Source: Candidatus Saccharimonadota bacterium (GTDB lineage Bacteria; Patescibacteriota; Saccharimonadia; Saccharimonadales; Saccharimonadaceae). Taken from it: DNA of 34,379 nucleotides. The stretch spans positions 1 through 34,379 of the forward strand of contig JAFWDS010000005.1 of NCBI GenBank assembly GCA_017516075.1, read 5' to 3'. A program made the translations under genes and the position numbers. Positions within the stretch are counted from its first letter, which is position 1. Each line of letters starts with the position of its first letter. This document shows positions 3,136 through 33,116 of this stretch, piece by piece. The notes beneath the pieces are model-generated. The model was not told where the DNA came from. It was given only the letters and a program-made list of their open reading frames with translations, and made no database searches.

Positions 3136-4821
3136 CTACCGAGCCACACATCGTACCACATCACCGCGGACACGATCTTCGCTGTAGTCTGGGCCGACGT
3201 AGTCATCCGAGTCCGCGACCAAGCTGTACACATCCTTATCTCCATAGGCTACAGACGACCACGAGAACACGTCGCTACCGACGTTTCCCAGTCTACCATA
3301 CCAGAAGCCAGACAAACCAAGATAGATAGGTGATTCCCAAATCTTTTGACCATTACCAAGTGCACGATCATCATCATCCCATCCATATTGTTCTACTAAA
3401 TTCCAGAATGATTTATCTGGAGCAGCAGAAACGGAATAACAATCACCAATAGGGAGTGTCCAGCCAGCCGGACAGATAGATTGTTCTACTATACCGCCTG
3501 TAATACTGCTACTATTATTTGATGCAATAGCTGCATTCCAATTATAGAAGTTTCCTAAGTGATATTGTTGAGTAGGAGTACCAGATACGGTAATATAGGT
3601 AGCAATGGGGTTAAGAGATTCGTCGCAGGCTGGCTCATGAGTAGTACTATCCCAAGTACAACTATTATAATAAGTACTCCAATTACTATAATTACTCAGT
3701 GTTTCATTCCAGTATAGGTTACCTGGATCATAGGATTCTGGAGTGTAGTTATTCTGACAATAGTTGTATTGACTATTCCAAGTTCCTCCCTGGCACCAGG
3801 TCTTAGTATTGGAATCATAGGTAGAGCGAGCTGGGGTCCAGCTAGCAATACTATAGCTCGTACCATTCCAACCAAGATCTGTATCTAGGTTTGTGTAGGT
3901 TTTATTCGAATCTAGATCCAAGTCTAGATTCTGCGTCATCCAGATATTACCATCAGCAAGTTTGGATATAGTATATGATTTACTATCTCGTTTATCAATT
4001 AGGGTATATTGCTGTTCACTTGTCATTGATGATAATATGGAAGATTTGTTGGTAGAGGAAATGTCTTGCATACAAACAATATCTGTACTTGTATTGGTAC
4101 CAATTGTAGTGCCAGATGGATTACAAGCCCCTGGCACTAACGCAGTGGATGGATGGACTAGAATATATATAACTTGCCCAGAATATGTTTCAGCCGGTTG
4201 GGTCTTACTAATATATGCAGCGTAAGTAGTAGTGAGTTTAACTCCGCCAGTCATAGCCATCATATCAGTGCCAGAATTCTTATGGGCTACCTTGGTGTAT
4301 TTATTTGGCACTACGTGGTATTGATCAAACGAAGCATCAGAACCTCCACTTACATTCGGCGCAGAATCAATAGCAAAAGCATTAGCACCAGAAGTATCAC
4401 CTGAGTCCTGTGTCATAGCTAGCTTCATCGCCCAGTTGGATACATCAGGATTCCCAGCAGATGTAGCTATACCAGATTCTATGGCGGAGTTTCCACTAGC
4501 AGTTGTCCCCACTAGTTTATTACTATTTGTTCCTCCTACTTCATCACCGGTGTATCCTGCCGCATAGATAGCAAATCCTTCCGCGTCATTACAAAAAGCA
4601 TGCAAAGTAGTAGTACCAATGTTTGCTTGGTAAGTGCCATTCGTAATCTCGGCATTATGAGACGTCATACCAGTACCACTCATAGAACAAGACACTGGAA
4701 CAGTGATATTAATCTCATCCACCACATCATCTGCAGAAACAAAAATAGATGCCAAAGCCGCACCAGAAAGCAATGTAGTGATTATTAGTATATTGGTAAC
4801 ATTTGTCGCAACATTTTTCAT
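3136..4821 (-). CDS. Secreted FISUMP-domain surface protein
   Basis: 561 residues. A hydrophobic signal or anchor segment lies at residues 8-29 (ILIITTLLSGAALASIFVSA). Residues about 35-225 form a module almost identical in pattern to the N-terminus of the protein at 18806-20254 (VPVSCSMSGTGMTSHNAEI, TTTLHAFCND, EGFAIYAAGYTG). The second half is a FISUMP domain: DGNIWMTQNLDLDLDS, SICPAGWTLPIGDCYSV and a closing GDVVRCVAR. An AGAAGG site lies seven bases before ATG, and a TATGAT -10 box is further upstream. It sits between rnpA and yidC, where housekeeping genes are usually adjacent. The last 170 bp is more GC-rich than the rest. Confidence 0.85.
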   Translation of the reverse strand: MKNVATNVTNILIITTLLSGAALASIFVSADDVVDEINITVPVSCSMSGTGMTSHNAEITNGTYQANIGTTTLHAFCNDAEGFAIYAAGYTGDEVGGTNSNKLVGTTASGNSAIESGIATSAGNPDVSNWAMKLAMTQDSGDTSGANAFAIDSAPNVSGGSDASFDQYHVVPNKYTKVAHKNSGTDMMAMTGGVKLTTTYAAYISKTQPAETYSGQVIYILVHPSTALVPGACNPSGTTIGTNTSTDIVCMQDISSTNKSSILSSMTSEQQYTLIDKRDSKSYTISKLADGNIWMTQNLDLDLDSNKTYTNLDTDLGWNGTSYSIASWTPARSTYDSNTKTWCQGGTWNSQYNYCQNNYTPESYDPGNLYWNETLSNYSNWSTYYNSCTWDSTTHEPACDESLNPIATYITVSGTPTQQYHLGNFYNWNAAIASNNSSSITGGIVEQSICPAGWTLPIGDCYSVSAAPDKSFWNLVEQYGWDDDDRALGNGQKIWESPIYLGLSGFWYGRLGNVGSDVFSWSSVAYGDKDVYSLVADSDDYVGPDYSEDRVRGDVVRCVAR

Positions 4822-11714: not shown

Positions 11715-12974
11715 ATGCCAAAGATTGAAAAACTCATTCCGGGAGGTCAAGCCCTCGCAACAATGCCTGATGGTAAAAAGGCGTTTTTTTGGAAAGCTCT
11801 CCCAGAAGAGATAGTTGTAGAATACGACGTCGTCAAAAACAAATCGCATTATTTCGAAGCAATCGCCACAAAAATTGAAAACCCATCTCCTCACCGGCAA
11901 GAACCTAAAGACGCCTGTTTTCTTGCTACGTCTCCCTGGCAAATCTTAAACTACGACTATGAATTATCGCAAAAACAAGAGTTAATTGTCGAAATCTTCC
12001 GAGAACAAGGTATTTCTATTGACAAACCAGAAATCGCCACTGATTTCAAAGATTATTTTTATCGCAACAAAATGGAATATGCTCTCTATTGGGATCGTGA
12101 ACAAAGTAAGATTTTGCCTGCCTTTCACGCTCGCGGTTTCCATCGCAAAATTCCCATCACCTCGTCCTCTATCGAACGTCCAGAATTATTTCAGCGCGCC
12201 ACTGAAATCATTGATGGGTTAAACGCGAATCACGAAGAAGCCCGCAAATATCATTCCCTACTACTTCGTTGTAATACAAAAGGCGAAATCTCCGGTGGTC
12301 TCTACGAAAACAAAAAGCCTCACCCAGTCTTCGATAATCTCACCGACAAGATTCTTGGCCAAGAATTTTCGTACTCTCCAAACGGCTTTTTCCAAATCAA
12401 CCTCCCAGTCTACGAAATGGCATTAAAGGAGATTAAAAAACATATCAATACGGATAGTGTTCTCGACCTCTATGCTGGCGTCGGCACCATCGGCCTCACT
12501 GTTGCCCCCGACTGTCGTCTCGCTCTAGTCGAAGTCGATAAAAGCGCTTATAAAGAGTTAGAACGAAATTGTACGATGCGGCAAGTTATTACTACTTCTG
12601 AGGAGCATGTTTGCCGACGTGGCAAACGCGGAGCGACCGAAGCCCGTGACGACGGGCCTGAGGGAGCGTTCCGAAGAAGTAGTAATAACTTGCCTACCCC
12701 AATTCTTTCGAAATCTGAAGAGGTTCTAAGTTTTATCAACTCCGACCAAACCATCATTCTTGATCCTCCTCGCGCCGGCCTCGACCAAAAACTTGTCGCA
12801 CACCTAGCCAAAGCTAGACCCAAAACTATTATCTACTTATCATGCAACCCAATTACCCAAGCTCGAGACATTAAACAACTACTAGATGCTTACGAGATTA
12901 AGAAGTTTAAAACCTTCAACTTCTTCCCCCGCACTCCCCATATTGAAAACTTAGTAGTATTGGAAAGAAATTAG
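11715..12974 (+). CDS. TrmA/RlmC/RlmD-family RNA uracil-C5 methyltransferase
   Basis: 419 residues. A TRAM-like N-terminus (residues 1-55) precedes the family core: FFQINLPVYEMA, SAM motif VLDLYAGVGTIGL, IILDPPRAGLD, and the catalytic cysteine at about 377 in YLSCNPITQARDI. The substrate should be a uridine in tRNA or 23S rRNA; which one cannot be told. The four-cysteine iron-sulphur motif of RlmC/RlmD is not seen: only one cysteine remains in DACFLATSPWQ. A family B palindromic element lies in frame between the acidic end of the SAM region (LVEVDKSAYKELERNC) and the DPPR motif, a variable loop in the family. The frame and all catalytic motifs are intact. Confidence 0.88.
   Translation: MPKIEKLIPGGQALATMPDGKKAFFWKALPEEIVVEYDVVKNKSHYFEAIATKIENPSPHRQEPKDACFLATSPWQILNYDYELSQKQELIVEIFREQGISIDKPEIATDFKDYFYRNKMEYALYWDREQSKILPAFHARGFHRKIPITSSSIERPELFQRATEIIDGLNANHEEARKYHSLLLRCNTKGEISGGLYENKKPHPVFDNLTDKILGQEFSYSPNGFFQINLPVYEMALKEIKKHINTDSVLDLYAGVGTIGLTVAPDCRLALVEVDKSAYKELERNCTMRQVITTSEEHVCRRGKRGATEARDDGPEGAFRRSSNNLPTPILSKSEEVLSFINSDQTIILDPPRAGLDQKLVAHLAKARPKTIIYLSCNPITQARDIKQLLDAYEIKKFKTFNFFPRTPHIENLVVLERN
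12580..12694 (+). repeat. Family B palindromic element inside the methyltransferase gene
   Basis: The 75-bp core 12600-12674 is nearly identical to 31961-32035 in the ATPase gene. It holds two hairpins, GTTTGCC/GGCAAAC (12609-12615 with 12621-12627) and GCCCGT/ACGGGC (12642-12647 with 12652-12657). Outside the core, 12580-12599 and 12675-12694 are perfect 20-base inverted repeats whose sequence is not shared with the other copy. The core is exactly 25 codons and is read in the phase GAG GAG CAT. It adds a basic peptide (HVCRRGKRGATEAR) to the host protein. Confidence 0.85.
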
Positions 12975-13044: not shown

Positions 13045-13122
13045 TCGACGGGTGACGACTTTTCTGGGGGACCCCCGAACCAGCTGGATTCGGGGGAAAG
13101 AAAAGTCGGCAGGACCCGTCGA
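13045..13122. repeat. Family C intergenic palindrome, copy 1
   Basis: A three-tier hairpin: outer arms TCGACGGGT/ACCCGTCGA (13045-13053, 13114-13122), middle GACTTTTCT/AGAAAAGTC and inner CCCCCGAA/TTCGGGGG. The outer TCGAYGGGTGACGA, the inner run of Gs and the closing CAGG-CCC-TCGA recur at 21628-21708. It lies between the methyltransferase gene and tRNA-Ser. There is no U tract, so it is not a plain terminator. Confidence 0.75.
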
Positions 13123-18416: not shown

Positions 18417-18670
18417 TAACAGGATGTGAACCGTAGGTTCAACCGGACGAGTGAGCGAGTAAATAAAACAAGCTTGCTTGTTTTATTTCGAGCCACGAGG
18501 AACGGACGACTTTTTACGCGAGTAAAAAGTCGAATCCTGTCGCTCGCTCATGATTTTTCGAACGAGGCAGTCCGGTATCGTTTGCGCTTTAGCGCAAACG
18601 AGTTTTCCTGTCGGATTTTCGAGCCACGAGGAACGGACGACTTTTGCTTTAGTAAAAGTCGAATCCTGTC
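18417..18670. repeat. Family D palindrome array beside tRNA-Arg
   Basis: No credible gene lies in 18372-18805. Two copies of a unit of about 52 bp (18489-18541 and 18620-18670) begin CGAGCCACGAGGAACGGAC, hold a hairpin (GACTTTT...AAAAGTC) and end TCGAATCCTGTC, a 12-base match to the tRNA-Arg T arm (18351-18361 region). Further hairpins precede each unit: AAATAAAACAAGC and its complement at 18461-18488, and CGTTTGCGC/GCGCAAACG near 18579-18600. Outer arms TGAGCGAG/CTCGCTCA (18452-18459, 18543-18550) and ACCGGAC/GTCCGGT enclose the first unit. A reversed T-arm-like piece (GTAGGTTC) is at 18433. The remaining 18671-18805 is AT-rich and holds the promoter of the next gene (TATAAT near 18770). Confidence 0.7.
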
Positions 18671-18805: not shown

Positions 18806-20254
18806 ATGAATAAAACGAAGCATCATACAAGAATTGCCGTGTCAGATAAAACAAATAAGTATCTATTACTCACCCCACTAAGTTTATTCGGCATAATAGT
18901 CCTTTCTGGAACTATTTTAATGTCTAGCATAGTAAATGCAGACAATGATAGCGTCGTAGATGAAATCAATATCACTGTTCCAGTTTCTTGTTCCCTTTCT
19001 GGTGTTGGTATGAATTCGCACAATACTAATATAGCTAATGGTATATATACTGCAGATATTGGTACTACCACACTACATGCATTTTGTAATGACAATGAGG
19101 GCTTTGCTATCTACGCTGCAGGATATACTGGAAATGAAGTAGGAGCAACTAATAGTAATAGACTAGTAGGAACAGCTGCTTCTAATAATGCCGTAATAGA
19201 CACTGGCCTAAATACTAGTGGTGATACTTCTAACTGGGCGATGAAACTATCCGTAGTCTCTAGCCCTACTCCTACTTATCCTATTACGATAGATTCTGCT
19301 CCTAATGTATCAGGTGGAGCTAATGCTAGCTTTAGTGACTATCATACTGTTCCGAATAGATACGCTAAAGTAGCACATAGAGATTCTGGTACTGATATAG
19401 GCCAGTCTGCTGAAGGAGCTACACTTAATACTACTTATGCAGCATATATATCAAAGACTCAACCTGCTGATACTTATTCTGGACAAGTAATATACACACT
19501 TGTACATCCTAGTGACCATGCGAAACCAATTGCTAATCCTGCTACACTAGATACTGGACAAACTATTAACTCTAAGCTAAAGTCTCTTGCGGCTACAGTA
19601 GTAAATGGGGAGGATACGACTAGTGTTTATGATGCTGTTGATAATTATATTAAATCTATTGAAGTCCACCTTGAAACAGCTGCTCCTACTGGCTTTACTC
19701 CAACTGAAAAGAATACCATTTCTACTTCTACTTCAAAGAAACCAGTCTATATAGTCTTTGATAATACTAATGGTGCTGGCATTATGCATTTCTATACTGA
19801 AGGAGATCAAATCGCTCTTTCTTCTGATTCATCTTATATGTTCAATTATTTTCAACGGCTTACCGAGATTTCTGGTATTTCTGATTGGGATACTTCTAGC
19901 GTGGCGGATATGTCTCACATGTTCTCCTATGCCGGCCACAGCGCCACCACCTTCACTTTAGACCTCTCTTCATGGGACACTTCTAAAGTGACGAGTATGA
20001 ATTCCATGTTCTACTATGCCGGCTATAACGCCACCACCTTCACTCTGGACCTCTCTTCTTGGGATACTTCTAGTGTGACGAATATGTCTTACATGTTCCG
20101 CTCTGCCGGCAACAGCGCCACCACTTGGTCTGTCACTATCCCTCAAACAAATGGAGGCGGTATTAGTAACACTACTGATCGTCTTTATGGAAAAACCACA
20201 TCGACTTATGGCGCACCAGTAAGTGGTAAATATTTCACCTTGGCACAACCATAA
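18806..20254 (+). CDS. BspA-like (DUF285) secreted surface protein
   Basis: 482 residues. A signal or anchor segment (LTPLSLFGIIVLSGTILMSS, about residues 27-46) is followed by the module shared with the FISUMP protein at 3136-4821 (VPVSCSLSGVGMNSHN, TTTLHAFCNDNEGFAIYAAGYTG, TTYAAYISKTQPADTYSGQVIYTLVHPS). The last third is BspA/DUF285-type: repeats of about 33 residues with WDTSSVADMSHMF, LSSWDTSKVTSMNSMF and LSSWDTSSVTNMSYMF. Such repeats form leucine-rich-like adhesive structures in host-associated bacteria. The 99-bp repeats are more GC-rich than the rest. There is a short leader with only a weak ribosome binding site. Confidence 0.88.
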   Translation: MNKTKHHTRIAVSDKTNKYLLLTPLSLFGIIVLSGTILMSSIVNADNDSVVDEINITVPVSCSLSGVGMNSHNTNIANGIYTADIGTTTLHAFCNDNEGFAIYAAGYTGNEVGATNSNRLVGTAASNNAVIDTGLNTSGDTSNWAMKLSVVSSPTPTYPITIDSAPNVSGGANASFSDYHTVPNRYAKVAHRDSGTDIGQSAEGATLNTTYAAYISKTQPADTYSGQVIYTLVHPSDHAKPIANPATLDTGQTINSKLKSLAATVVNGEDTTSVYDAVDNYIKSIEVHLETAAPTGFTPTEKNTISTSTSKKPVYIVFDNTNGAGIMHFYTEGDQIALSSDSSYMFNYFQRLTEISGISDWDTSSVADMSHMFSYAGHSATTFTLDLSSWDTSKVTSMNSMFYYAGYNATTFTLDLSSWDTSSVTNMSYMFRSAGNSATTWSVTIPQTNGGGISNTTDRLYGKTTSTYGAPVSGKYFTLAQP

Positions 20255-21745: not shown

Positions 21746-24679
21746 ATGAAATATGCGAGTAGTTATGAACCGGGAGAATACGAATCAGATATTTATGCTT
21801 CTTGGGAAGCATCCGGTATTTTTAATCCAAAACTAACCACCATGCCCGTCGACAATGACGGCGACGGCGTCGACGACAGGCAAGAAAACTTGGCATCCAA
21901 TCCTAAGGTATTCTCTATCGTCATGCCACCGCCAAACGCCAACGGCAATTTACATATTGGCCATGGCCTCACTGTTGCTCTCGAAGATTCTCTTACACGC
22001 TATTATCGCTTAAGAGGCGCATCCTCTTGGTATATACCTGGCGCCGATCATGCCGGCTTCGAAACCTGGGTCGTCTACGAAAAAAATCTCGAGAAACAAG
22101 GCCACACTCGCTTCGAATTCGACCGTGACACTCTCTATGCTCGCGTCTGGGATTTTGTCGCCGAACAACGTGGCAACATGGAGCTCCAGCTCCGCGCCCT
22201 TGGCGCCTCATGTTCTTGGGATGACCTCACCTTCACTCTAGACGAAAACGTCATCGACCGCGTCTATACTACATTTGAAAAGATGTGGAATGACGGCCTG
22301 ATTTACAGAGGCGAAAAGCTCGTCAATTACTGCCCCAAGCATCGTACTGCTTTCGCAGATATAGAGGTAGAGCACAAAGACGAAAAAGGCACTCTCTGGG
22401 ACCTCGAATACAAACTAGTAGAAGAGGATTCGGAAAGTGCTATTTCGAAACATGTACGAGGCTCCGACAGTCATTTTGACAACGGTCACGGACGAGAATC
22501 TGATACTGAAATATCAGGGCGAGTCCGCCTGAACCGTTGTGAAAATGACGATCGCGAGCCGAGTACGTTGAGAAATGGCACTTCCGAAACTTCCCTAATA
22601 GTTAGCACTACTCGCCCAGAGACCTTATTCGGCGATGTTGCCGTAGCTGTAAATCCGGAAGATGTGCGCTACAAGGGCCTAATTGGTAAGCATGTTCGAC
22701 TCCCTCTAACAGATAGAACAATTCCAATTATCGCCGACGAGCATGCCGACCCAGAATACGGCACTGGTGCTGTCAAAATCACCCCTGCTCACGATTTCGA
22801 TGATTTCGAGGTTGGCGAGCGCCACAATCTTGAGCGTATTCAGGTGATTTCCGAAGAAGGCAAGATGGTCAATGTCCCAGAGAAATACTATGGCATGACC
22901 ACCGAAGAATGCCGCAAACAAGTTTTGAAGGATTTGAAGGAACAGGGTTTACTCAAAGGTGAACACAAAATTGTTCACTCTGTCGCCCACTGCTACAAAT
23001 GTGGTACTATTCTCGAGCCCATGCTCAAAGAGCAATGGTTTGTTGATGTTGAAACCTTGGCCAAAACCGCTATCGAACATCTGGAAAACGACGAAATCAA
23101 ATTCCACCCAGAGAACAAGAAGAAGGTCCTCATCAATTATCTCAAGAATCTCAAAGACTGGAACATTTCCCGCCAAATTCCTTGGGGTATCGCCATCCCG
23201 ATGTTTCGCCAGGTTGGTGATGCCTCAGACGAACCAGATTGGATTTTTGATCGCCGAACCCATTTGAAGGAAATAGAAAAAGCCGGCGTGCGATATGAGC
23301 GCGATGAGGATACTTTTGATACTTGGTTCTCTAGCTCGCACTGGCCAATTGTCTGCACTAACTGGACCGAAGAAAATTTCAACCCATATTACCCTCTAAA
23401 TGTCATGGAAACCGGCGCCGATATCCTCTTTGCTTGGGTCGCCCGCATGATTATGATGGGGCTTTATGTAACGGGCAAAGTGCCATTTAAAGAAGTTTAT
23501 CTTCACGGCCTCGTTCTCGATGAACATGGCCAAAAAATGAGCAAAAGCAAGGGCAATGTGATAAATCCCATGGATCTTGTCACTAGATATGGCTCCGACG
23601 CCTTCCGCCTTGGTATATTGAGAGGCCGCTCCGCCGGCATGAACCAAGCCTTCAGCGAAAACTCCGTCATCGCTGGCCGCAACCTCTGCAACAAGCTCTG
23701 GAACATCTCCCGTCTCGTCCAATCTATCGTAGATGAAGAATCGGAAGATAACATTTCGAAACATTTACGAGGCGCCGACAGTCATTTTAACAACGGTCAC
23801 GGACGAGAATCTGATACTGAAATATCAGGGCGAGTCCGCCTGAACCGTTGTGAAAATGACGATCGCGAGCCGAGTACGTTGAGAAATGTTACCTCCGATT
23901 CTTATTCAACAGATAATATGGGCGAAGACTGGATTTGCCGCGAGATTAATAGCTGCTTGGAGCAGGTTGAAAGCTGTATGCAGAACTATCGTTTTGCCGA
24001 AGCAGTAGAAATCTTATATCAGACCATCTGGGACAAATACGCTGACTGGTTCCTAGAGTCGCAGAAACTTTACAAGAACGCCACACTTCTAAAAACCACC
24101 CTCACTTCCCTGTTAATTGCCCTCCATCCTTTCGCTCCCTTTGTTACCGAAGCAATTTGGCAAAATCTCTCCTGGACCGAAGGCTTCATTGCTACAGCAA
24201 AATGGCCTGCTAGGCTCGAATATGACCCGATTTCCGCCGAAAACTTCGAAAACATAAGAATTATCGTGTCTGAAGTCAGAACCACCTTGCAAGCCCTTCC
24301 AGGCGCCAATAACGCCAAAAAATACAACCTATATTACGACAACGACAGCCTCGTGGATGATAATCAGTTGTTAATCAAGACTCTCACCAGAGTCCCAGCG
24401 GTTAATTCCCTAGATGGCGCCCCTAGAGGCCTCAGATTAGCTCTAGCCAACCACGAGCTTTACCTTGATGTCCCAGAAAAAGTCGTCAAGCAGTACAAAG
24501 ACGCCCTTACGGAGAAGATTCTCGCCGTCGGCCGCGAGCTAGATGCTCTTAATCTCCGGATGAGCAACCCCAATTACGTCGAACGCGCCCCAGAACATCT
24601 CGTCAAAGAGACAAAAGATCAGATTAAAGAAAAGGAATCCCTCATCTCCCGCCTCAAAACTCAGCTATCAATAATATAA
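21746..24679 (+). CDS. valS: Valine-tRNA ligase with two embedded palindromic elements
   Basis: 977 residues, longer than the usual 870-900 because of the inserts. HIGH motif is LHIGHG (69-74) and KMSKS is near 596. The editing domain has TTRPETLFGDVAVAVNPED. The catalytic domain continues with DTWFSSSHWP and GADILFAWVARMIMMG, then the anticodon-binding domain and a C-terminal coiled coil (KDQIKEKESLISRL). Family A elements lie in frame at residues 233-277, just before the editing-domain TTRPET strand, and 670-714, at the start of the anticodon-binding domain. Before HIGH is an extra acidic loop, DNDGDGVDDRQEN (36-48), like an EF-hand or thrombospondin type 3 calcium loop. It charges tRNA-Val. 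It is leaderless and is followed closely by an AT-rich gene. Confidence 0.97.
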   Translation: MKYASSYEPGEYESDIYASWEASGIFNPKLTTMPVDNDGDGVDDRQENLASNPKVFSIVMPPPNANGNLHIGHGLTVALEDSLTRYYRLRGASSWYIPGADHAGFETWVVYEKNLEKQGHTRFEFDRDTLYARVWDFVAEQRGNMELQLRALGASCSWDDLTFTLDENVIDRVYTTFEKMWNDGLIYRGEKLVNYCPKHRTAFADIEVEHKDEKGTLWDLEYKLVEEDSESAISKHVRGSDSHFDNGHGRESDTEISGRVRLNRCENDDREPSTLRNGTSETSLIVSTTRPETLFGDVAVAVNPEDVRYKGLIGKHVRLPLTDRTIPIIADEHADPEYGTGAVKITPAHDFDDFEVGERHNLERIQVISEEGKMVNVPEKYYGMTTEECRKQVLKDLKEQGLLKGEHKIVHSVAHCYKCGTILEPMLKEQWFVDVETLAKTAIEHLENDEIKFHPENKKKVLINYLKNLKDWNISRQIPWGIAIPMFRQVGDASDEPDWIFDRRTHLKEIEKAGVRYERDEDTFDTWFSSSHWPIVCTNWTEENFNPYYPLNVMETGADILFAWVARMIMMGLYVTGKVPFKEVYLHGLVLDEHGQKMSKSKGNVINPMDLVTRYGSDAFRLGILRGRSAGMNQAFSENSVIAGRNLCNKLWNISRLVQSIVDEESEDNISKHLRGADSHFNNGHGRESDTEISGRVRLNRCENDDREPSTLRNVTSDSYSTDNMGEDWICREINSCLEQVESCMQNYRFAEAVEILYQTIWDKYADWFLESQKLYKNATLLKTTLTSLLIALHPFAPFVTEAIWQNLSWTEGFIATAKWPARLEYDPISAENFENIRIIVSEVRTTLQALPGANNAKKYNLYYDNDSLVDDNQLLIKTLTRVPAVNSLDGAPRGLRLALANHELYLDVPEKVVKQYKDALTEKILAVGRELDALNLRMSNPNYVERAPEHLVKETKDQIKEKESLISRLKTQLSII
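22430..22587 (+). repeat. Family A palindromic element, copy 1 (valS)
   Basis: The 135-bp core 22442-22576 codes for 45 residues from ISKH to STLRN. Core stem GTCATTTTGACAACGG (22470-22485) pairs with 22534-22549 with one mismatch. An inner hairpin CTGATA/TATCAG sits at the tip. The outer arms 22430-22441 and 22577-22587 also pair. Copies 2 and 3 have the same core length and codon phase. Confidence 0.9.
23739..23900 (+). repeat. Family A palindromic element, copy 2 (valS)
   Basis: Core 23753-23887 (135 bp) is nearly identical to copy 1. The outer arms 23739-23752 (AATCGGAAGATAAC) and 23888-23900 (GTTACCTCCGATT) pair with each other with one gap, and differ from the arms of copies 1 and 3. 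Confidence 0.9.
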
Positions 24680-28386: not shown

Positions 28387-29616
28387 ATGAATTTTATTAC
28401 CTTAGAACCAGAACAATTCAGGGAATATGCTCAAAAATCTCCCTATAAATCCTTCTATCAAACCCCAGAAATCGCCAAACTCCGCGAAAACAGTGGCTGG
28501 ACTCCCTATTATTTTGGTGTAGAAAGTAGTGGCAAACTCCTTGCCGCTTCTATGGTAGTAGCGAAACCTGCTTTCCTTGGCAAATCCATCTATTACGCTC
28601 CCGGCGGACCCTTGTTAGATTTCGAAGACGCAGACCTCACAGGCTTCTTCATGAAAAACCTCAAATCCTACGCCAAGTCTCACAACGGCTACATCGTTCA
28701 TATCGAGCCATATTATGAGCTCGTCGAACGTGATCGCCACGGCGAAATAATAGAAGGAGGCTTTAATCACCAAAAAGCTCTCAACAACCTCAAAAACGCT
28801 GGCCTTATCCGCCTACCAAAATCTGATGAACCTAAATACTCTTTTGTCCTGGACATCAAAGACCACACAGCTGAACAAATATTTGCCGACATGAAGAGAA
28901 ATACTCGGAACCACATCAGAAAAGCCGAAAAAATGGGCGTCAAAATCCGCGAATTAAAAAGGGAAGAACTCGGCATTTTCAAACAAATCACCGAATCTAC
29001 CTCCAACCGCCGCAACTTCACCGACAAGCCCTTGTCCTATTACGAACAGATGTACGACCTCTTCCATGGTCGTGGCGAAGTTATGTTTATGTTGGCAGAA
29101 GTGGAGGGGCAATTGGAAGATACCATTTCGAAACATTTACGAGGCGCCGACAGTCAGAATTACAACGGTCACGGACGAGAATCTGATACTGAAATATCAG
29201 GGCGAGTCCGCCTGAGCCGTTGTGATTCTGACGATCGCGAGCCGAGTACGTTGAGAAATGGTACTTCCAATTGCAAAACCCCATTATCTGCCGCCATGTT
29301 CATGCTCTACGGCGATGAGGTGATATATCTGTTTTCCGGTAGTGATGAGAAATACATGAAAGACTACAACGCCCAGTATTTGATCCAATGGCACATGATC
29401 AAATACGCTGTCGAGCATGGCTTCAAGCGCTACAATTTCTACGGCATCCAAGGCTTGCCAGATAAATCCAGCAAAGATTACGGTATTTATGACTTCAAAA
29501 AAGGTTTCACTTCTGATGAAACCGGCCGTGTCACCGAACTTATCGGGGCTCATGAGTTACCAGTGAATATGATTTTTTATCAGCTACATAAATTATTAAG
29601 TAAACTAAAGCATTAA
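28387..29616 (+). CDS. FemAB-family peptidyltransferase with embedded palindromic element
   Basis: 409 residues. Family features: SFYQTPEIAKLRENSGWTPY, GKSIYYAPGGPLLDFED, a central FADMKRNTRNHIRKAEKMGV, SAAMFMLYGDEVIYLFSGSDEKY and YNFYGIQG-like with YGIYDFKKGF. A family A element fills residues 247-291, between EVEGQ and PLSAAMFMLYGD, two strands joined directly in relatives. Without it the protein is about 360 residues, normal size. It probably adds amino acids to peptidoglycan precursors. It is only about 22% identical by eye to the first FemAB gene, so it is not a recent duplicate. A DUF362 gene follows with a proper ribosome binding site. Confidence 0.87.
   Translation: MNFITLEPEQFREYAQKSPYKSFYQTPEIAKLRENSGWTPYYFGVESSGKLLAASMVVAKPAFLGKSIYYAPGGPLLDFEDADLTGFFMKNLKSYAKSHNGYIVHIEPYYELVERDRHGEIIEGGFNHQKALNNLKNAGLIRLPKSDEPKYSFVLDIKDHTAEQIFADMKRNTRNHIRKAEKMGVKIRELKREELGIFKQITESTSNRRNFTDKPLSYYEQMYDLFHGRGEVMFMLAEVEGQLEDTISKHLRGADSQNYNGHGRESDTEISGRVRLSRCDSDDREPSTLRNGTSNCKTPLSAAMFMLYGDEVIYLFSGSDEKYMKDYNAQYLIQWHMIKYAVEHGFKRYNFYGIQGLPDKSSKDYGIYDFKKGFTSDETGRVTELIGAHELPVNMIFYQLHKLLSKLKH
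29110..29273 (+). repeat. Family A palindromic element, copy 3 (FemAB gene)
   Basis: Core 29125-29259 (135 bp). Its main stem is GTCAGAATTACAACGG (29153-29168) with 29217-29232. Compared with copy 1 the left arm changed from CATTTT to CAGAAT and the right arm from AAAATG to ATTCTG, so pairing is kept. Outer arms 29110-29124 (CAATTGGAAGATACC) and 29260-29273 (GGTACTTCCAATTG) pair. Confidence 0.9.
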
Positions 29617-30716: not shown

Positions 30717-33116
30717 ATGAATCAGACCGGTCTCACCAAAAAACAAGTCCAAGCTAGAATTTCCGAGGGTAAGGTCAATCAAGCCCCTCGCAAAAATCAG
30801 ACCACAATCACCAATATCATCCTCCGAAACACCCTCACTATCTTTAATCTCGTCAACCTCATCCTCGCCCTCATGATTATCTCAGTCGGTTCTTACAAGA
30901 ACCTTCTTTTTGTTTTGATTGCCATCGCGAACACCCTTATCAGTATTATCAACGAAATCCGCGCTAAAAAAACCGTCGACAAAATGCGTCTTATTTCTGA
31001 ACAAAAACCCACCGTCATCAGAGATGGCAAAACTCAGCAAATCCCTGGGGACCAAATTGTCGAAGGCGACCTCCTTGTCTATTCTCTCGGCGACCAAATC
31101 CTCGTTGATTGCAAAATCACCGAAGGCTCAGTCGAAGTCAACGAATCTTTCATCACTGGCGAACAAGACAATATCACCAGGGCAAAAGGCGCCAAACTTA
31201 TTTCCGGCTCCTTCATCGTTTCCGGCACCTGCAAAGCCGAAGCTACCGCTGTTGGCAAAGACAGCGAGCTAAACAAACTCGAATCCAGCGCCCACGTCAT
31301 CAAAACCGCCGATTCCAAGCTCTTCAAACTCATGAATAACATCGTCAAATACATCAGCTTCGCTCTCATCCCTATCGGCGCTCTCCTTCTCTGGAGCCGC
31401 TTCCGTGTCGAAACCACAGACACCACCACCGCCGTCACTAGCACCGTTGCATCTCTTATCAACATGATTCCAGAAGGTCTCATCCTTTTAACCAGCTCTG
31501 TTCTCGCTCTCGCAACCATCCGGCTGAGTAAAAAGCAGGTTCTTGTCCAAGACCTCTATTCCATTGAGACGCTCGCTCGTGTCGATACCATCGCTCTAGA
31601 TAAAACCGGCACCCTCACTTCCGGCAAAATGAAGGTTCACGACTATACCCCCATCAAAAAATCCTTTGAAACGGCCCTAGCATCGATTCTAAGCCACCAA
31701 ACCACCGAAAATGCTACCATAAGCGCTTTGAAGCAAAAGTTCTTAAAAACTACCAATAATCAAGAAATAGACGATATTATCAATATCATCGATTTCTCCT
31801 CCGAACGCAAATGCTCCGGCATCGTCACAAGAAACGCCACCTACCTCCTTGGTGCCGTCGATTTCATCACCAATGATGAAGAGATTATCAAAAAGGTCCA
31901 ATCCGCCTCCGCAGGCTACCGCACCTTAGCAGTTATACAGTGCGAGGAATACCCTCGTTCGAGGAGCATGTTTGCCGACGTGGCAAACGCGGAGCGACCG
32001 AGCCCCGTAACGACGGGCGCGAGGGAGTGTTCCGAGAACGACGGGTATTCTCGCACTGTGCTGCTAGGGTTCATTCGTCTCGAAGACGAAATCCGCCCTG
32101 ACGCCAAGCAGATTATCAAGTACTTCTACGACAACGACATCGCTGTAAAAATTATCTCCGGCGACGATCTGGAGGCTGTTACCAAAATCGCCACCCGCGT
32201 CGGCGTCAAAGACTTAAACGGTGTTAATCTTTCCGATTTCAAGACTCCAGATTATGACAAACTGGTTCAAAAATACTCGATTTTCACTCGTGTCACCCCA
32301 GCCCAGAAAAAGCATCTCATCGCAGCTCTGAAAAAACAGGGAAACACCATTGCCATGACTGGCGATGGTGTCAACGACATTCTGGCTATGAAAGAAGCCG
32401 ACGTTTCAATTGCTATCGGCGAAGGCTCCGACGCCGCCCGTAGAAGCGCCAAACTCGTCCTCTTAAACTCCGGCTTCGAATCCGTCCCGTCCATCATCGA
32501 CGAAGGCCGTCAGTCTATCAACAACTTAGAGCGCTCCACCGCCCTCTTTCTCGCCAAAACCATCTACGCCAGCATCCTCGCCATCATTTTTATCTTCATC
32601 CCCATCAAATACCCCTTCTCTTCACCAGTTGAAATGTCACTCTTAAACTTCGCCTGTATCGGCTTCCCAGGCCTCATCCTCGCTCTCGAACACAACACCG
32701 AGCGCATCAAAAACCGCTTTACTCGCAATATCATCGAATACTCTCTCCCAGTCGGCCTTACAATTTCCATTTCTATGCTCACTCTTTCTATCCTCGCTCA
32801 CCTCAACATTTTCCCACATTACGACCTCGCTACCACCGCAGTTTTCGTCACCTTTACTATTGACCTCATCCTAATTTACTGGATCTCGAGACCTCTAAAC
32901 ACCCTCCGCGCCGGCCTCCTCCTCACCATCATCGCTATTATGGTAGGCGCCTTCCTTATTCCATTCTTCCACGATTTCTTTGACTTCGTCTTCCTCACCT
33001 CAAACGGTCTCATTGTCACCCTCATCGCCATCGCTTCTTCTGTTGCTCTTTTCGGAATCCTCCGCCGCATCATGAAATTCATCTCTACCCGCCTCTTCGA
33101 CCAACCAGGCATTTAA
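30717..33116 (+). CDS. P-type cation-transporting ATPase, CtpE-like
   Basis: 799 residues from the ATG at 30717; an upstream in-frame ATG lies inside the preceding hairpin and is rejected. Motifs: actuator ESFITGEQDNI, helix motif NMIPEGLILLTSS (PEGL), phosphorylation site ALDKTGTLTSG, hinge MTGDGVNDILAMKEADVSIAIGEGSDAARRSAK, and about ten membrane helices. The PEGL motif and GDGVNDILAMKEAD suit the actinobacterial CtpE group, linked to calcium uptake, but ion specificity is not certain. A family B element lies in the nucleotide-binding domain (codons about 415-440), between TLAVIQC and LLGFIRLEDEIRPDA, which are adjacent strands in relatives. Confidence 0.9.
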   Translation: MNQTGLTKKQVQARISEGKVNQAPRKNQTTITNIILRNTLTIFNLVNLILALMIISVGSYKNLLFVLIAIANTLISIINEIRAKKTVDKMRLISEQKPTVIRDGKTQQIPGDQIVEGDLLVYSLGDQILVDCKITEGSVEVNESFITGEQDNITRAKGAKLISGSFIVSGTCKAEATAVGKDSELNKLESSAHVIKTADSKLFKLMNNIVKYISFALIPIGALLLWSRFRVETTDTTTAVTSTVASLINMIPEGLILLTSSVLALATIRLSKKQVLVQDLYSIETLARVDTIALDKTGTLTSGKMKVHDYTPIKKSFETALASILSHQTTENATISALKQKFLKTTNNQEIDDIINIIDFSSERKCSGIVTRNATYLLGAVDFITNDEEIIKKVQSASAGYRTLAVIQCEEYPRSRSMFADVANAERPSPVTTGARECSENDGYSRTVLLGFIRLEDEIRPDAKQIIKYFYDNDIAVKIISGDDLEAVTKIATRVGVKDLNGVNLSDFKTPDYDKLVQKYSIFTRVTPAQKKHLIAALKKQGNTIAMTGDGVNDILAMKEADVSIAIGEGSDAARRSAKLVLLNSGFESVPSIIDEGRQSINNLERSTALFLAKTIYASILAIIFIFIPIKYPFSSPVEMSLLNFACIGFPGLILALEHNTERIKNRFTRNIIEYSLPVGLTISISMLTLSILAHLNIFPHYDLATTAVFVTFTIDLILIYWISRPLNTLRAGLLLTIIAIMVGAFLIPFFHDFFDFVFLTSNGLIVTLIAIASSVALFGILRRIMKFISTRLFDQPGI
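31928..32065 (+). repeat. Family B palindromic element inside the ATPase gene
   Basis: The 75-bp core 31961-32035 matches 12600-12674 almost base for base, but is read in another phase (AGG AGC ATG TTT), giving SMFADVANAERPSPV. Its outer arms, 31928-31960 and 32036-32065, pair over about 28 bases with three small bulges and bear no resemblance to the arms of the other copy. Confidence 0.85.

Follow-up and report, generated by a model that had tools for sequence, protein, structure and literature searches.

The trmA-like gene of a Saccharibacterium carries an insert bracketed by perfect inverted repeats, and related inserts in other genes of the window are bracketed by repeats of their own, which raises the question of how one element comes to have arms that match each other at every locus. 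The first-pass annotation had proposed that the arms are locus-specific, one being host sequence and the other an inverted copy of it. The window analysed, a stretch of 34,379 nucleotides, comes from a genome of 0.92 Mb (95.7% complete) whose closest trmA relatives are Saccharibacteria. The reading we favour, with a probability of about 0.58, is that the inserts are protein-coding palindromic repeats, similar in kind to the Rickettsia palindromic elements (RPE), and that template switching during replication keeps their arms alike and lengthens them. Most likely, no new kind of transposon is required.

An inverted-repeat element in trmA and its relatives in the window

The element in the trmA-like gene comprises the following features.

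11715-12974, forward strand: host gene, an open reading frame for a trmA/rumA-like methyltransferase, with orthologues that have and lack the insert
12580-12599, forward strand: left arm, 20 bases, the perfect complement of 12675-12694
12600-12674, forward strand: family B core of 75 nt; it contains two hairpins, both with paired double changes, and has copies in its own genome and in genomes of the genus
12675-12694, forward strand: right arm, the perfect complement of 12580-12599

The perfect 20-base complements reported previously are present and flank the 75-nt core. Arms and core together encode residues 289-327 of the TrmA-like protein. When this TrmA was modelled with AlphaFold2 (mean pLDDT 86), the sole stretch scoring below 50, residues 291-323, fell inside this segment, and the insert is therefore predicted to form a loop without order that links a helix to a strand.

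The family B core has five copies in its own genome, in trmA, the P-type ATPase gene, argS (two copies) and dus. The window also contains three copies of a second core family, A.

31937-31960, forward strand: left arm in the P-type ATPase gene, with looser pairing out to 31923
31961-32035, forward strand: family B core in the ATPase gene, 92% identical to 12600-12674
32036-32059, forward strand: right arm in the ATPase gene, with looser pairing out to 32070
22413-22603, forward strand: family A, valS site 1 (repeat D1); arms 22413-22446 and 22572-22603, core 22447-22571, 27 paired columns
23719-23921, forward strand: family A, valS site 2; arms 23719-23757 and 23883-23921, core 23758-23882, 33 paired columns
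29109-29274, forward strand: family A in a femX-like gene; arms 29109-29129 and 29255-29274, core 29130-29254, 20 pairs in 21 columns

In the ATPase gene, 23 bases are strictly paired, with one single-base bulge in each arm, and the looser extension brings this to 32 pairs, so that the earlier figure of about 28 was a fair one. The weaker pairing of 12-15 bases given for family A was not borne out by the counts listed above. In other species, the valS and femX sites are occupied by family B instead of family A.

Copies across the genus

The family B core was found in 31 of 99 genomes of the genus; outside it, a sample of the family yielded short partial core matches only, in three other genera. 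The genome set contains one genome per species, mostly metagenome assemblies, and the sets of orthologues are small. From the source genome and its relatives, we assembled at least 57 distinct copies. The palindromic arms around the cores are real: the two arms of the same copy pair over a mean of 23.1 bases (range 17-37, n = 57), against 7.2 bases for left and right arms taken from different copies. Elements are about 115-165 nt long, consisting of arms of ~20 nt and a core of 75 (family B) or 125 nt (family A). All but one of the copies (56/57) lie in an open gene, where the inserts stay in frame and lack stops, and an element may run either with or against its host gene. Grouped by their flanks, the hosts are many different genes, including argS (at three separate sites), trmA, dus, valS and an ATPase; we read some further flank groups as putative obg, tsaD and cysteine desulfurase genes.

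In different species, several unrelated hairpin families are found at one and the same codon position of a given gene, always in frame. These hotspots are located in trmA near 12580, at the N-terminal, middle and C-terminal sites of argS (L144-L173) and in dus (L174-L203); in each of these three genes, the same codon position is used by several core families.

Paired changes, inverted cores and bulges

Orthologous copies in trmA and at the C-terminal site of argS differ by paired changes in both arms, as where GCATCT/AGATGC becomes GTATCT/AGATAC in argS, which points to arm change after insertion. In one trmA orthologue (L008), most of the core is lost and a long stem is retained, suggesting that the stem is maintained independently of the core. 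Cores can also be inverted: at the dus site, the core of L187 is the inverted version of that of L182 (93/102), the core of L181 likewise reads antisense, and the C-terminal argS copy of L108 is antisense where its orthologues are sense. Within the first 21 arm columns there are 1063 Watson-Crick pairs, and one-base bulges (68) outnumber substitutions (49); an extra base at right-arm position 7 recurs in 22 copies. This excess would be explained if arm copying erases substitutions, whereas the removal of a bulge shifts the frame and is eliminated by purifying selection.

We infer that these patterns stem from template switching and not from selection for a DNA structure. A palindromic repeat would have been inserted in frame at a tolerant loop of a housekeeping protein, in one genus of gut Saccharibacteria, and the hairpin in the gene would then serve as a hotspot for template switching by the DNA polymerase. 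A fork stalled in the hairpin would copy one arm off the other, so that point differences between the arms are either erased or spread to the opposite arm. The stem would creep outward into host codons, with the protein holding one arm while the other is rewritten to match, and the core would occasionally be flipped by the same process. Selection would preserve the frame and, on the side under constraint, the residues of the host protein, and one-base bulges would persist. This scheme builds on paired arms that track their locus, mismatches with no wobble preference, the excess of bulges, one core inversion and dus orthologues that are empty and free of any palindrome.

In coding DNA, the reported footprint of template switching is arm homogenisation together with spacer inversion (PMC8604942), and stem repair, stem extension and compensatory change in RNA genes have been assigned to it (PMC8794818). 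Template switching elsewhere favours short spacers (PMC8604942), and the spacer here, at 75-125 nt, counts against it, although it is itself folded. Of the processes suggested for reversed copying of the flank, template switching fits best.

A different account is that a DNA hairpin or cruciform is selected, for mobility or for a host protein, with compensatory substitutions preserving the stem. Bulge positions are conserved, and fixed bulges could be functional or reflect recognition of the stem by something; arm length is close to 20 in most copies; and the core helices show paired double changes, all of which suit such selection. However, long stems survive the loss of most or all of the core (L008, L200), and selection would be needed separately at each host locus, on flanking sequence that stays behind when the element moves. 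A search directed at Y1 transposases brought no enzyme to light either: the source genome (G000) has none and 3 of the 99 genus genomes have one, on which grounds a REP/RAYT mobiliser was rejected. We regard selection on a DNA structure as unlikely.

Arms follow the locus and cores do not

The arms have two layers, with a boundary that varies among subfamilies. Positions 1 to 5-7, counted from the core, are largely element consensus; past position ~15, different sites have little sequence in common, and the outer ~8-10 bases are locus-specific. Fourteen copies at five different sites have nearly the whole arm in common (CACGAGGAATACCC-TCGTTC and its partner), with 26-40 of 40 matches compared with 9.7 in random flank, and have at least two further locus-specific pairs outside the shared arm. 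When arms were examined as MITE-type terminal repeats, this fixed arm was absent from the remaining copies, and it is not known to be shared with any transposon. The proposal that arms are locus-specific consequently stands for the outer bases, and fails for the inner bases and for these 14 copies; a fixed arm sequence in many copies, which the first-pass annotation had named as evidence against itself, is found in this part of the set.

In the outer arms, identity is.68 for orthologous sites and.34 for all other comparisons. Cores at the same site in different genomes are.847 identical, against.838 for unrelated pairs; cores at different sites within one genome reach.873, an apparent excess that is small. 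Arms track the locus and cores do not, and the histories of arm and core are decoupled. Homogenisation or exchange among copies probably acts on the cores, which would account for their similarity while arms remain local.

In filled dus orthologues, the 5′ arm coincides with the conserved codons for E-[EKQ]-[YHF] in a conserved helix, and whatever codons the host has there reappear in inverted form in the 3′ arm: 8.15/9 of the outermost bases match, compared with 4.9/9 when partners are shuffled (2000 shuffles, highest value 6.7). In some trmA lineages, pairing reaches further into the host codons, with perfect runs of 8-11 in L008, L020, L024 and L027 (11 in L008, 10 in L027 and 9 in L020). 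Permutation of partners among the filled trmA genomes gave p of about 0.002, and in the empty genomes, a small control set (n = 6), pairing was close to that of their own shuffles. The view that one arm is host sequence and the other its inverted copy is therefore upheld at dus. It is not universal, because at the middle argS site host sequence cannot be recognised in either arm.

The mirrored 3′ arm of dus would also be expected if hairpin-primed or template-switched synthesis reversed the flank during insertion, so that every insertion is born with target-matched arms. The locus-specific pairs beyond the shared arm, and the matched outer arms of different families at one site, agree with this. 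On the other hand, the nearly identical arm at five sites implies that an arm can travel with the element, and the paired changes between orthologues in argS arose after insertion. Arms are thus not made at insertion of necessity, and we think it unlikely that they generally are; the inverted copy of the host flank probably arises mostly after insertion. We are similarly doubtful of a dedicated mobility process, in which hotspots in housekeeping genes would act as hairpin landing pads, host-matched arms would come from hairpin-primed synthesis and cores would be cassettes that are exchanged or flipped. By eye, no target-site duplication was seen on comparing filled and empty dus sites, which come from distant species.

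It is very improbable that the elements entered palindromes already present in host genes: short fortuitous complementarity does occur in hosts (the KNC/AIL codons of TrmA, TAGCAG/CTGCTA in the ATPase gene), and one site is used by several families, but the true empty dus orthologues L192, L194, L197 and L199 read LYEKYAGEHYEPLK or similar and have no palindrome, and the arm remnants without a core in L200 and L201 look like deletion derivatives. True empty sites with both arms in place, the other finding that would have spoken against the original proposal, were not encountered at dus, where a prior host palindrome was rejected.

Mismatches do not suggest an RNA fold

If a structure is maintained as RNA, G.U is expected to be far better tolerated than A.C. 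The first 21 arm columns, read in gene orientation, contain 16 G.T and 17 A.C mismatches, and the dus set 4 and 12; over whole alignments the counts are 22 and 28, so that the wobble argument draws on a few dozen mismatches. Among 684 cells, the core helices have nine G.T and six A.C, with many double changes from C-G to G-C. Since G.T is not in excess over A.C, the suggestion that the fold is actively kept is disfavoured as far as RNA is concerned, and an RNA fold is probably not what is maintained. Selection on an mRNA structure, such as an RNA that splices itself or is bypassed and holds the exon ends together by its outer helix, could draw on the strong predicted folds and the tandem G-A motifs in the core, but besides the mismatches it has to contend with elements in both orientations relative to the gene and a window with no Rfam match beyond tRNAs, and we give it hardly any credence. 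An Rfam-type RNA family was rejected on the same evidence, as was an intron or translational bypass, given that in-frame, stop-free inserts require no removal.

Comparison with known palindromic repeats

The closest counterparts are the RPEs of Rickettsia and the repeats of Wolbachia, palindromes of ~105-150 nt that occur in many copies and several families and are fused in frame to unrelated conserved genes, the extra peptide being tolerated (PMC10969869, PMC2229807). The Saccharibacterial elements resemble RPEs in lying in frame inside many unrelated genes, in forming a long stem-loop with arms of ~20 nt around a 75- or 125-nt core and, according to the structural model, in contributing an exposed or disordered segment. 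They belong to another phylum, and the likeness is one of layout and in-frame habit. RPEs are described as losing repeat identity over time (PMC6649704), whereas complementarity here is renewed as arms change and extends into host codons. In addition, several families occupy one insertion site here.

Quasipalindromes that undergo template switching show the same arm homogenisation, spacer inversion and stem extension, also in coding DNA (PMC8604942, PMC8794818). Those are chance inverted repeats with short spacers, whereas here the hairpin comes with a repeated element, at dozens of sites, and has a spacer of at least 75 nt. In mitochondrial genomes of Nematomorpha, genes likewise contain perfect inverted repeats of which both arms are coding, and conversion, for instance by template switching, is believed to keep the repeats identical; these arms reach 284 bp, much longer than here, and enclose no repeated core element (PMC6649704). 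Bacterial MITEs and REP sequences are also short, presumably mobile palindromes in many copies. In contrast to these, the elements described here appear to lack fixed terminal repeats on most copies and are almost wholly intragenic, and, unlike REP sequences with RAYT, their carriers have no Y1 transposase. Our searches of open-access literature turned up no description of palindromic or MITE elements in Saccharibacteria or Patescibacteria, which is not proof that no such description exists.

Protein-coding palindromic repeats would in this case reside in the small genome of a candidate-phylum bacterium and offer a natural laboratory for template switching at dozens of loci. In these housekeeping genes, one flank seems to be remodelled by a selfish hairpin into the mirror image of the opposite flank, and the linked amino-acid changes that follow from arm rewriting could pass for RNA structure or positive selection. 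The decoupling of core and arm makes the mechanism directly testable with strain-level genomes.

Other repeats at trmA and in the window

At the trmA site of L010, the element is reduced: its loop (TCGGAACGCTCCCTC) corresponds to the 3′ end of the family B core in inverted orientation, as would result from a deletion with inversion that took away the remainder. Directly 3′ of trmA, at 13045-13121, the window has a strong intergenic palindrome (GACGGGTGACGACTTTTC ... GAAAAGTCGGCAGGACCCGTC); a resembling hairpin layout occurs inside argS of L147 and L148, and this type may be another family. An exact 29-nt direct repeat (TTTCGAGCCACGAGGAACGGACGACTTTT) is present in intergenic DNA at 18486-18514 and 18617-18645, 131 bases apart. 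Two paralogous putative surface protein genes, at 3136-4821 and 18806-20254, lie on opposite strands and are 74% alike over 263 nt. An 87-nt tandem repeat, in three copies, spans 19886-20146, and from its translation we take it to encode a leucine-rich, BspA-like surface repeat.
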